Assembly (NCBI RefSeq): GCF_039679125.1 | Contig: NZ_CP155551.1 | Location: forward strand, 3,782,001-3,846,000 | DNA from: Blastococcus sp. HT6-4 | GTDB lineage: Bacteria; Actinomycetota; Actinomycetes; Mycobacteriales; Geodermatophilaceae | Reading direction: 5' to 3' | DNA length: 64,000 nucleotides | In this document: positions 26,019-29,629 of the stretch, one piece after another | Layout of the letters: every line of letters starts with the position of its first letter | Numbering within the stretch: position 1 is the stretch's first letter | Position numbers and translations under genes: made by a program | The notes under the pieces: generated by a model | What the model saw: the letters and a program-made list of their open reading frames with translations, nothing else | The model's database searches: none | What the model was told of the DNA's origin: nothing

Positions 26019-28556
26019 TCAGGTCCGGACGAACAGTCGGCGGTGGGTGGCACCGGGGGCGACGGAGCGGATCCCGGTGCGCGCCAGCAGCCACTTCTCC
26101 AGCCGGTCCTCGGGCAACGGCCGGCTGATCAGGAAACCCTGCAGCTTGTCGCAGCCCATGGTCGCCAGCTGGTTGCGGGTCATCTCGTCCTCGACGCCCT
26201 CGGCGACCACGCAGAGCCCCAGGTTGTGCGCCAGCTCGATGATGGAGCGCGCGATGGACGACTCCCCCTGGCTGGTGGCCATCGTCAGCACGAAGGACTT
26301 GTCGATCTTCAGCTCGTCGATGGGCAGCTGCCGCAGCTGCGACAGCGACGAGTAGCCGGTGCCGAAGTCGTCCATGGACAGCGAGATCCCGAGGTCGTGC
26401 AGGTCCTCGAGCACCGTGGACTCGCGGACGGAGTCGTCGACGACGCTGCTCTCGGTGAGCTCCAGGACGAGCAGCTGCCCGGGCACCTCGTGCCGCTCCA
26501 GCGCGCGCCGGATCCGGTCGACCAGGTCCGGCTCGGTCAGCGACCGGGCGGAGATGTTGACCGACACCGAGAGCGAGATGCCCTGGTCCAGCCATCGCCG
26601 GCAGCGCGCCAGTGCCAGGTCGAGGACGTGGTCGGTCACGGCGCCGATGCGGCCGATCTGCTCGGCCAGGCCGATCACGTCCTCGGGCGGGATGCTGCCG
26701 TACCGGGGATGGGTCCAGCGGACGAGCGTCTCCACCGACACGATGTCCGACGTCTGGGCGTCGATGACCGGCTGGTAGACCACGCCGATCTGCCCGTCGG
26801 CCATGGCCTGCTCCAGCTCGGTGCCCAGCTGCAGCCGGCGCAGGCTCTGCTGGTCGAGCACCGGGTGGTAGCTGGCGACGCCGCCGGAGCCACCGGCGGC
26901 CAGCAGGGCGACGTCGGCCCGCTGCATGAGCGTCCCGGCGTCGGTCCCGTGCACCGGGGCGGCGGCGACGCCGATGGTGAGCGACACCTCGAGGTCCAGC
27001 CCGGCGACGCGCACGCGGGTCGCGGCCGCCTCCCGCAGCCGGCGGGCGGCCTGCTCGGTCGCCGCCAGCGAGAGCCCGGGCAGGAGCACGGCGAACTGCT
27101 CGCGCTCCATGCGGGCCAGGAGGGCGCCCGGCGGGGCGTGCTCGCGGAGCAGCCCGGCGGTGACGAGCAGCAGCTCGTCGCTGGCCGCGTGACCCAGGGT
27201 GTCGGTGACGTCGCCGTAGGTGCCCAGGCAGGCGAGGATGAGGCCGGCCCGGCCACCCCCGGGCTCGGCCGACAGGAGCTGGCCGATCTCGGCGGCCATG
27301 CGCTGCCGGTTCGGCAGACCGGTCAGCCGGTCGTGGTCGGCGTCGTAGCGGATCCGGGTGAGCAGCTGCTGCTGCCGGATCGCGGCGTTGACGTGGGTGA
27401 GCATCGAGTCCAGCGCGCCGCGCTCGCTGCGCCCGAAGGACGCCGTGTCGCTGCGCCGGTCGCACACCTCGAGGTATCCGGGCTCCCCCGCGGCCGTGGT
27501 CACCGGCGCGCCCAGCAGCTCGGTCGCCCCCCGGCGGCCGAGCGCGGCGATCTCCACCTGGTCGGCCCGGGCCAGGGAGACGTAGACCGCACCGCCGGTC
27601 GACGCGACCGCCCGGCGCCGCAGTGGGTCGTCGGGGTCACCGGGACCGTCGTACCAGTCCGCGCCGTCCTCGGCGGACACCACGAGCCGCGGCCCCTCGT
27701 CGAGGTAGGGCGGCAGCCAGAGGGCGACGCGCTCGGCGTTCAGGAGCTCCCGGACCGCCTGGACGATCTGGCGGGTGCCGGCTTCGTCGGGGCCCACCTG
27801 CTCCACCGTGCGCGCGAACTCGTAGACCCGCTGCACCGAGTGCGCCTCGCGGGTCACCTCCGCGAACCGGCGGTAGAGGAGCACGAGCGCCGCGGCCAGG
27901 GGGGCGATGAGCAGCCAGCCCCAGAGGGTGGCGTGCAGCAGCAGCACGATGGCCAGGCCGATGAGCACCGCCACGGGCTGCACGACGACGACGGGCACGA
28001 GCAGGCTCGTCCAGACGGTGCGGCCCGGATAGCCCTGGGTCACGGTGATGGCGCCGGCCACCAGGCACGCGGCGACGGCGTTGGCGGCGAAGATGGCGGC
28101 CAGGCTGGACAGCCAGGTCAGCGGCGAGGTCACGTCGCCCGCCGGCAGCAACGAGAGGACGAACACCGCGACGGCGGTCTCGATCACCGCCACGGCCACG
28201 TTGAAGACGATCTTGGGCGCCGGGAACCGCTGGATCACCAGCACCAGCCCGACCGCGCCGGCACGGGTCACGGCCGTCCACACGCCGCCGATCTCGAGCA
28301 GGGCGATCACGAAGGCCAGTTCGCTGGCCGAGTTGACGAAGCTCTGCGTGCGGAACTCGATGTGGACGTACACCCACTCGGCCACCACGGCGGTGAGGAA
28401 CACCGCGATCAGGACTGCGAGGTCCACGTCCTCGGGGCCGCGCGTGAGGACGGCCGCACCGAGCGGGACGGCGAGCGACACCGCCAGCAGCGCGACCGCC
28501 CACGGGCTGCGCGCCGGGTGCGGCCGGCCAGGCGCGCCAAGGTCCTGCTCAGCCAC
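26019..28556 (-). CDS. Membrane GGDEF/EAL protein, probable c-di-GMP phosphodiesterase
   Basis: The 845-residue product has about seven hydrophobic segments (residues 18-228), a GAF-like region (about 245-390), a GGDEF domain (about 400-560) and an EAL domain (about 575-825). The GGDEF signature is degenerate: MEREQF at 483-488, so cyclase activity is unlikely. The EAL domain is intact: ETL (609-611), VNIS (666-669), ELTES (699-703), DDFGTG (729-734), KIDK (750-753), EGVE (786-789) and QGF (806-808). It should hydrolyse cyclic-di-GMP, with the GGDEF and GAF parts as possible sensors. Start is GTG at 28556 after GGGGAG. A 34-residue peptide gene and hairpin lie upstream on the same strand. Confidence 0.92.
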   Translation of the reverse strand: MAEQDLGAPGRPHPARSPWAVALLAVSLAVPLGAAVLTRGPEDVDLAVLIAVFLTAVVAEWVYVHIEFRTQSFVNSASELAFVIALLEIGGVWTAVTRAGAVGLVLVIQRFPAPKIVFNVAVAVIETAVAVFVLSLLPAGDVTSPLTWLSSLAAIFAANAVAACLVAGAITVTQGYPGRTVWTSLLVPVVVVQPVAVLIGLAIVLLLHATLWGWLLIAPLAAALVLLYRRFAEVTREAHSVQRVYEFARTVEQVGPDEAGTRQIVQAVRELLNAERVALWLPPYLDEGPRLVVSAEDGADWYDGPGDPDDPLRRRAVASTGGAVYVSLARADQVEIAALGRRGATELLGAPVTTAAGEPGYLEVCDRRSDTASFGRSERGALDSMLTHVNAAIRQQQLLTRIRYDADHDRLTGLPNRQRMAAEIGQLLSAEPGGGRAGLILACLGTYGDVTDTLGHAASDELLLVTAGLLREHAPPGALLARMEREQFAVLLPGLSLAATEQAARRLREAAATRVRVAGLDLEVSLTIGVAAAPVHGTDAGTLMQRADVALLAAGGSGGVASYHPVLDQQSLRRLQLGTELEQAMADGQIGVVYQPVIDAQTSDIVSVETLVRWTHPRYGSIPPEDVIGLAEQIGRIGAVTDHVLDLALARCRRWLDQGISLSVSVNISARSLTEPDLVDRIRRALERHEVPGQLLVLELTESSVVDDSVRESTVLEDLHDLGISLSMDDFGTGYSSLSQLRQLPIDELKIDKSFVLTMATSQGESSIARSIIELAHNLGLCVVAEGVEDEMTRNQLATMGCDKLQGFLISRPLPEDRLEKWLLARTGIRSVAPGATHRRLFVRT

Positions 28557-28740: not shown

Positions 28741-28845
28741 TCAGGCCTGGGCGCGGCCCCAACGGACCCCGCGACCCCAACGGACGCCGCGACCCCAACG
28801 GACGCCGCGGGCGGACTGGGACTCTCGCTGCATGCTGCTGTTCAT
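28741..28845 (-). CDS. 34-residue Arg/Trp peptide with three GVRWGR repeats
   Basis: I do not recognise this gene. The frame starts at ATG 28845, five bases after GAGGGAGA, and encodes MNSSMQRESQSAR, then three exact copies of the hexapeptide GVRWGR, then AQA. The product has eight Arg, three Trp and one Glu (net charge about +7) and no signal peptide. At DNA level the repeat is an 18-base unit with silent differences between copies, consistent with selection on the peptide. A strong hairpin follows the stop. It could be a cationic regulatory or antimicrobial-like peptide, a modified-peptide precursor (no modifying enzyme is nearby), or a leader peptide for the downstream EAL gene. Confidence 0.6.
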   Translation of the reverse strand: MNSSMQRESQSARGVRWGRGVRWGRGVRWGRAQA

Positions 28846-29002
28846 GGACGTCTCCCTCTGAGCACGACTGATTGGCTGGCGCGGCAGCCATCCACGCGCG
28901 GGGCAAGGCGTCGTCGAATACGGACCGCGCGGGAGACACTCCTTCCCGTCACGACCGGCGGCAAGCTTGTCGGCGAGGACACGCCGCGAAGATCGTCATG
29001 TC

Positions 29003-29158: not shown

Positions 29159-29184
29159 GTGGTGGACGGCGACGGACCGGTGCT

Positions 29185-29190
29185 TACGCT
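29185..29190 (+). promoter_or_regulatory. -10 element of a leaderless promoter
   Basis: TACGCT (TANNNT) ends seven bases before the GTG at 29198, and no ribosome binding site is present. This spacing is typical of leaderless actinobacterial transcripts whose first base is the start codon. Confidence 0.45.
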
Positions 29191-29197
29191 CCGGCGC

Positions 29198-29629
29198 GTG
29201 CACCCCGGCCAGGACGATCGCGAGCGCGGCTCGACGCTGCCCTTCGTGCTGGTCTGCTGGCTGGTGGCGGCCCTCATGGTGGTCGGCGGCATCGCGGCCT
29301 CCGACGCCTTCCTGGAGCAGCAGGAGGTCCAGTCGGTCTGCGACGGCGCCGCGCTCGCCGCGGCCAACCAGGCCGACGAGGCCGTCCTCTACGCACGGGG
29401 GGTCGGCACCGAGCTGCCGCTCACCCGCGCCGCCGCGCAGGCTGCGGTGGCCGACCAGCTCGCCGACGGCGGGGTGCGGCTGGACAGCTGGTCGGCCGAG
29501 ACCGACGGCGCCGAGGTGACCGTGCGGTGCACCCGCCACGTCGACATCGCGTTCGGCTGGCTGTTCCTCGGCGGGCAGCCGCTGGAGCGGACCGCCGTGT
29601 CGGGCGCGCGGGCGCCCACGCTGCCGTGA
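29198..29629 (+). CDS. TadE/TadG-like pilus-assembly membrane protein
   Basis: A 143-residue protein with the Tad N-terminal pattern: short charged head ending RERGS, then one membrane helix (TLPFVLVCWLVAALMVVGGI), then LEQQEVQSVCDGAALAAANQ, matching the QxxADAAALAAA signature of TadE/TadG-like pseudopilins in the Flp pilus and secretion pathway. It acts presumably at the membrane outer face. No other tad gene is in the window, so it is an orphan here. Start at GTG 29198 is chosen for the leaderless promoter; GTG 29159, 29162 or 29180 are alternatives. A hairpin follows. Confidence 0.75.
   Translation: MHPGQDDRERGSTLPFVLVCWLVAALMVVGGIAASDAFLEQQEVQSVCDGAALAAANQADEAVLYARGVGTELPLTRAAAQAAVADQLADGGVRLDSWSAETDGAEVTVRCTRHVDIAFGWLFLGGQPLERTAVSGARAPTLP

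Follow-up and report, generated by a model that had tools for sequence, protein, structure and literature searches.

The question raised by this locus is whether a very small open reading frame on the minus strand of the window (the whole stretch of 64,000 nucleotides of DNA that was analysed) represents a genuine gene and, if so, what its conspicuously repetitive product does in the cell. The encoded peptide reads MNSSMQRESQSA(RGVRWG)3RAQA and contains eight Arg residues, three Trp residues and a single Glu, amounting to a net charge of about +7. The original prediction had described a ribosome binding site, an ATG, 34 codons, a stop codon and a long perfect hairpin, as well as three exact GVRWGR repeats with the above-mentioned composition, and all of these features were recovered on the minus strand and from the translation of the ORF (Table 1). 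The copies had also been said to differ by synonymous changes only, and the window gene's units indeed display four synonymous and no non-synonymous codon-pair differences. When the residues of the 34-aa peptide were shuffled, at least one tandem hexamer pair was obtained in 4 of 200,000 trials. The mini-gene is present as a single copy in its own 4.30-Mb genome (a single hit at E 1e-16, followed by one at E 0.18).

Table 1. Features of the mini-gene locus (positions within the window)
Feature	Position	Strand	Remarks
Partner gene	26019..28556	-	845 aa; an N-terminal membrane domain of ~255 aa, then GAF, GGDEF and EAL (Pfam)
Hairpin, perfect, 17 bp with 4-base loop	28685..28722	-	18 bases past the stop codon; probable terminator; without U-run
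Mini-gene ORF	28741..28845	-	34 codons, ATG start, stop; MNSSMQRESQSARGVRWGRGVRWGRGVRWGRAQA
Repeat array R(GVRWGR)x3	28753..28809	-	identical residues, synonymous differences only
Repeat units	28789-28806, 28771-28788, 28753-28770	-	each an exact GVRWGR
Conserved leader	28843..28942	-	match to model R1, ends at the ATG; E 6e-18 here
Shine-Dalgarno-like GAGGGAG	28852..28858	-	G-rich stretch at the same place in 44 aligned relatives
Leader hairpin P2 (UGGCUG...CAGCCA)	28873..28890	-	both arms of the stem vary from species to species
Highly conserved 5' leader element	28895..28931	-	may form stem P1 (28925-28931 with 28895-28901)
-10-like hexamer GAGTGT	28936..28941	-	putative promoter; position relative to the -35-like hexamer conserved by eye
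-35-like hexamer TTGCCG	28959..28964	-	putative promoter, by eye
Lone TadE/G-like pilus gene (PF13400)	29159-29629		divergent from the mini-gene; near it in 32 loci

There is scarcely any doubt that the mini-gene is real. A protein search matched all 22 genomes of the same genus (Blastococcus), with best E values ranging from 4e-14 to 0.03, which disposes of the scenario, named in the original prediction, of missing or frameshifted relatives, and extraction of ORFs yielded a family of peptides of 18–42 residues. Stronger proof was provided by a census based on a covariance model of the leader (R1, built from 44 sequences), by which selection of loci according to their peptide is avoided; the sequences behind this model came from peptide and leader-pattern matches, and the two lines of evidence are thus not fully independent. 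The model matched 101 of the 112 Geodermatophilaceae genomes (92 of the 96 good ones), and a W-repeat ORF starts at the end of every one of these 101 family matches, in one case with a single unit. The 11 family genomes lacking a leader match comprise nine of genera g86–g88 and two that are incomplete (70 and 80%). Applied to one genome per species, a DNA pattern of three repeats matched at least 115 stretches, and among those listed 28 are small ORFs with the leader, all from Geodermatophilaceae, one is without it (L206) and 86 are others. A chance ORF is ruled out by this conservation across the family, and what emerges is an unrecognised gene of about 18–42 codons that is close to universal in one family of bacteria from soil and rock. 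The original prediction had assigned such a pattern to no named family, and this view was upheld by the database searches: six family peptides found no match in Pfam or NCBIfam at the curated cut-off, an Rfam search of the window returned sub-threshold matches only, and a profile search against solved structures gave nothing at E 1. Similarly, plasmid relatives of the mini-gene were absent at E 1, and 21 stretches in viral contigs fit the repeat pattern, none of them with the leader. Three entries are unusual in other respects. A divergent but leader-bearing relative (L330, genome G051) specifies a peptide with one W unit only (MSATRSARTSPRSVRTVRWG); a fragmented genome (G407) contains two full leader copies (L327 and L328) with different arrays (TARWG x3 plus SSRWS, and a TAKWG array, respectively), reflecting either a mixed assembly or a duplication; and a contig whose title reads Bacillus sp. 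AZ43 (unverified; L243) bears a Blastococcus-type gene, the genome being probably mislabelled.

The family exhibits an unusual evolutionary signature, in that the units are identical within a species and different between species. Arrays of at least two W units occur in 100 of the 101 ORFs (G051 having its single unit), and the units are identical in 96 of these 100, the exceptions being G407, G172, G070 and G216. About 64 distinct five-residue cores were found between species (that of G070 being mis-phased by the script), in which G predominates at x1 and either K or R at x3, x2 is highly variable, W invariant and x5 small, and most arrays consist of two to five units. Codon-pair differences within arrays amount to 362 synonymous versus 18 non-synonymous, where single-step mutational opportunity would favour the non-synonymous class about 3 to 1, and the selection on the amino acids that had been suggested for the window copies is thus supported for the family as a whole. 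Synonymous but no non-synonymous differences are present in 73 of the 100 arrays, while 23 arrays contain no difference whatever. The excess extends to the variable positions (84 versus 4 at x2 and 70 versus 3 at x5), and both TCN and AGY codons for Ser are mixed within identical arrays in four species. On a tree of the neighbouring enzyme, the units track the lineages and change along them. The safe statement from these sequence comparisons is that strong purifying selection acts on the residues within a lineage, in addition to change between lineages.

The homogeneity of the arrays could also arise passively, if slippage at the DNA level kept the units alike and the x residues had no function. 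One array (L327) appears to have been caught in replacement, with three TARWG units and one SSRWS, where L329 of the same genus has four SSRWS units, and DNA-level turnover therefore does happen and explains part of the homogeneity. Furthermore, unit-by-unit descent, as judged from kept synonymous fingerprints, was not significant where the units differ (P 0.22, 7 pairs), the corresponding values being P 0.05 for the 8 same-unit pairs and 0.056 over all 25 pairs; parallel unit-by-unit substitution was consequently dropped as a proven fact and is regarded as unproven. However, freshly homogenised DNA would not show the synonymous divergence without residue change that is observed in 73 arrays, nor do the Ser codon mixtures fit such a process. 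Passive turnover as the entire explanation appears already strained by the synonymous divergence, and we consider it distinctly improbable.

Upstream of the ORF, the 5' leader element has the consensus GCGGTCCGTACCGAACGACGCTCTGCCCCCGCG. Covariation in the possible P1 stem was weak according to RNAalifold (1 of 5 predicted pairs). A best leader stem of at least 5 bp was identified in 68 of 71 leaders, albeit not always the same stem, and the mean score of the P2 stem was 5.8 as compared to 5.0 in shuffled segments; because such controls give only slightly shorter stems, length is a weak argument by itself and the case for P2 depends on matching changes in its two arms between species, judged by eye (GGCUG/CAGCC, GACUGC/GCAGUC and GACAGC/GCUGUC). 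Downstream of the ORF, a hairpin below -15 kcal/mol is present in 61 of 71 relatives, and a putative -10-like hexamer (TAGCCT) is located between the mini-gene's hairpin and the following gene, which encodes a c-di-GMP enzyme. The mini-gene, with its own hairpin and with this hexamer behind it, is thus not simply part of one operon with the enzyme, and is probably transcribed independently. A short ORF with Trp and Arg codons, a hairpin past the stop and a conserved downstream gene is nevertheless reminiscent of a leader-peptide attenuator, in which translation of the W/R codons would control read-through into the c-di-GMP gene. Such control is very unlikely to be the explanation: selection covers the amino acids including the x positions, beyond the Trp and Arg codons, the downstream gene is a c-di-GMP enzyme rather than a regulated amino-acid gene, the -10-like hexamer is situated after the hairpin, and a visual search for pairing between leader and terminator showed that several species do not conserve it. 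Antitermination through pairing of the leader CUGCCCC with the terminator was rejected on the latter grounds, as was sequestration of the ribosome binding site by the leader GACGC, which by eye is likewise not kept across species.

In the window as well as in 32 of 32 further loci, the mini-gene is situated directly upstream of a GAF-GGDEF-EAL gene, in the window on the same strand as this membrane protein gene and at a distance of 184 bp. Conserved neighbours are the EAL gene, rpmG, maoC, tadE and yajQ, the tadE side being less tight (1–3 kb from the mini-gene in 14 of 32 loci). In L278, L273 and L050, which represent several genera, the mini-gene and tadE are separated by a gene of about 670–800 aa. 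The pairing with the c-di-GMP gene, the conserved leader and the species-wise change of the units had gone unnoticed in the original prediction, whose range of suggested functions was left open.

The association is not confined to the mini-gene. In a sample of 30 loci with homologues of the enzyme, of which 29 belong to other families within the order, both strands were scanned, and a W-repeat ORF was detected upstream of the enzyme in eight, including G424 with at least seven GTAWN units; all eight are on the enzyme's strand and none on the opposite one. Among the 19 loci in which the enzyme N-terminus could be aligned, and the upstream region is thus well defined, seven were positive and 12 negative. 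No W-repeat was found upstream in 22 of the 30 loci, several of which have rpmG/maoC behind the enzyme. The upstream genes in other families encode peptides with GNTWT x5, GALWG x2 or GAGWG x2, or S8 subtilases (PF00082) with tails such as (SSTWA)n, (SARWS)n or GRTWS, and at the GNTWT, GALWG, GAGWG and SSTWA loci rpmG and maoC follow the enzyme as they do in the window. Additionally, among the more distant members of the mini-gene's own family, two loci of G420 specify peptides of 21 and 22 aa (RAGRWG/RNGRWG) at the corresponding place, without the leader, while G425 (83 or 110 aa, according to the start chosen) and G423 (112 aa) encode GVSWN/GVSWG repeat proteins with a signal-peptide-like N-terminus. 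A search of 397 genomes of the order for the secreted GVSWG protein gave one weak match, in the mini-gene's own family and at a different locus.

The converse sample consisted of 30 W-pentad loci, one per genome, chosen without regard to the enzyme and drawn from the 170 of 239 genomes with some periodic-Trp match. The W-pentad DNA pattern is unspecific, with a reversed control giving similar counts, and the informative part of this sample is the five loci that hold an S8 subtilase: in all five, an enzyme homologue is next to the subtilase on the same strand, with gaps of 4–98 bp, as identified from the first ~450–500 enzyme residues inside the locus. The N-termini of these enzymes contain six to eight hydrophobic segments like those of the window enzyme, and are hardly alike in sequence. 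The W-tails of the scanned subtilases found no Pfam or NCBIfam match at the curated cut-off. Blastococcus genome G014 (L417) and G205 (L422, L441) also hold subtilase/enzyme pairs, with tails of (GVSWS)15 in L417 and (GLSWN)15 in L441. W-tail S8 subtilases immediately before membrane GAF-GGDEF-EAL-type genes were noted in L441, L442, L445, L446, L404, L417, L422, L424, L432 and L437. Membrane c-di-GMP enzymes of one kind are thus repeatedly preceded by tandem-Trp genes, W-tail subtilases included. The mini-gene thus appears to be a repeat-only version of a partner that recurs beside the c-di-GMP protein. The pairing is well supported and, in our judgement, quite probably functional.

The enzyme's N-terminal membrane domain has no Pfam match. 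For the window enzyme, which was the one modelled, this domain is predicted to resemble ECF S-components in fold, the structure comparison covering Foldseek's own candidates, such that a family absent from these is not thereby excluded. The known S-components bind vitamins or metal ions, which tells against a peptide ligand; the domain may represent a novel class of sensor among c-di-GMP proteins. The signals of many GGDEF/EAL sensors are unknown, and with a candidate ligand encoded by the adjacent gene, one class of them would become directly testable. We propose that the mini-gene, transcribed from a putative promoter of its own, would specify the repeat-only member of a tandem Trp-repeat class with the core xxxW[SGNTA], which the window peptide contains in three tandem copies as G-V-R-W-G joined by R. 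Its partner would be the protein in which GAF, GGDEF and EAL come after a membrane domain that, for the window enzyme, is predicted to be S-component-like. The repeat peptide, whole or possibly cut at the Arg linkers, would make contact with this partner as a ligand or direct regulator and thereby set the c-di-GMP level, regulation presumably running from peptide to enzyme; in other lineages, the repeats would be carried on secreted peptides or on a subtilase tail. Each unit would have to fit one co-evolving site, which would keep units identical within a species and let them change between species.

That the peptide is a ligand or regulator of the enzyme is the reading we tentatively prefer, at close to even chances. 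It is consistent with units that are identical and that change from lineage to lineage and, to a weak degree, with the co-divergence seen for the membrane domain of the enzyme. Unit change against divergence of this domain gave a partial r of 0.13 (P 0.04, uncorrected, six proteins tested), and an earlier test, in which the only control was the enzyme's catalytic part, gave 0.18 (P 0.001, with permutations ignoring relatedness); co-divergence, being weak and uncorrected, was dropped as firm evidence. The main difficulty for a ligand of an outer pocket is the missing signal peptide in the main lineage: no obvious signal peptide was seen by eye in any of the 101 census peptides, whose N-termini are short and polar, and in Blastococcus the peptide would have to be exported all the same. 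A broader version, an Actinomycetota "tryptophan code" in which W-units are cut to identical Trp peptides and read by the vitamin-receptor-like enzyme domain, is speculative and rather unlikely; if true, it would constitute a species-specific peptide-to-c-di-GMP route, undescribed as far as searches show, with mini-peptides, secreted repeat peptides and protease tails as its carriers.

Some of the same observations would also suit a precursor of identical signal peptides that are exported and cut, with an unrelated receptor encoded elsewhere and the c-di-GMP gene as an incidental neighbour. Copies identical within and divergent between species, mostly two to five in number, are consistent with this, as are the signal-peptide-like N-termini of the G425 and G423 relatives and the precedent of bacterial RRNPPA pheromone precursors, which carry up to six identical peptide copies (PMC9765709). 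However, the census peptides lack an obvious signal peptide, no receptor or protease gene was identified for them, and the W-tail subtilases adjoin an enzyme of the same kind in five of five cases, so that the neighbour is probably not incidental; this explanation is therefore considered unlikely. A cytoplasmic micro-protein that binds nucleic acid or the ribosome is a further candidate, in which RG/W repeats would bind RNA multivalently and the gene would be autoregulated via a structured leader. The strong positive charge, the lack of a confident AlphaFold2 fold (mean pLDDT 54) and a leader that may be structured are compatible with such a role; yet unspecific binding needs no identical x positions, contrary to the ratios at x2 and x5, and such a role offers no explanation for subtilases that carry W-repeat tails and adjoin an enzyme of this kind. 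We regard this role, too, as distinctly improbable. The preferred reading remains that of a ligand or regulator of the neighbouring enzyme.

A literature search retrieved nothing on the mini-gene, the W-tails or the pairing with the enzyme, the papers that contain "GVRWGR" being on N-acetyltransferases and taken as unrelated, and as far as searches show, no known system combines tandem Trp units with a c-di-GMP protein of this type. The mini-gene resembles the W-tail S8 subtilases, which share an xxxW[SNA] core and a position directly upstream, on the same strand, of a partner gene of the same kind, but are hundreds of residues in length, contain a PF00082 domain and carry many pentads without an Arg linker; no name was found for their arrangement with GAF-GGDEF-EAL genes. 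RiPPs, which include a Trp-crosslinked triceptide type, are characterised by a leader peptide before the core, whereas only two to three residues after Met precede the array here (L128, L130). For peTrpL of Sinorhizobium, which is presumably tiny and Trp-containing, we know of no tandem units or c-di-GMP partner. It is a leader peptide acting in trans, but originates from a transcription attenuator and has been connected with the regulation of multidrug resistance (PMC7298713). Multi-copy pheromone precursors come nearest as working analogues. Those of the RRNPPA systems (AimR, NprR, Rap and PlcR types) resemble the mini-gene in being small genes with several identical peptide copies, a variable position with a possible role in specificity and a sensor gene alongside, for which the mini-gene's neighbour is a candidate, and differ in Sec export and the TPR-fold receptors of Firmicutes (PMC9765709); here, the main-lineage peptide is without a signal peptide by eye and its neighbour is a membrane GAF-GGDEF-EAL gene of Actinomycetota. 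Fission yeast P-factor likewise has tandem copies (4–8), with gene and receptor diverse in nature, but is a eukaryotic secretory precursor of which wild strains mix the copies (PMC6342294), whereas 96 of 100 arrays are pure in the present family.

The distribution of the leader was also explored beyond the mini-gene. A regulon sharing the leader was rejected, as the window's own genome contains one exact match to the core pattern, and the 34 other matches in that genome have one to two mismatches and are chance-like (control 9). Across the order, the leader pattern was present in 43 of 397 genomes, 42 of them from the same family and one chance-like, and in the class beyond the mini-gene's own genus the leader model matched 3 of 394 genomes at E 0.004–0.007, which was taken as chance. 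In three genomes of genus g21 (L324 in G410, L325 in G323 and L326 in G319), the promoter region and the first leader element are duplicated near the mini-gene, and the duplicated modules lie ahead of other small ORFs, which measure 70, 77 and 47 residues and contain hydrophobic stretches, indicating that the promoter/first-element module occurs apart from the peptide.
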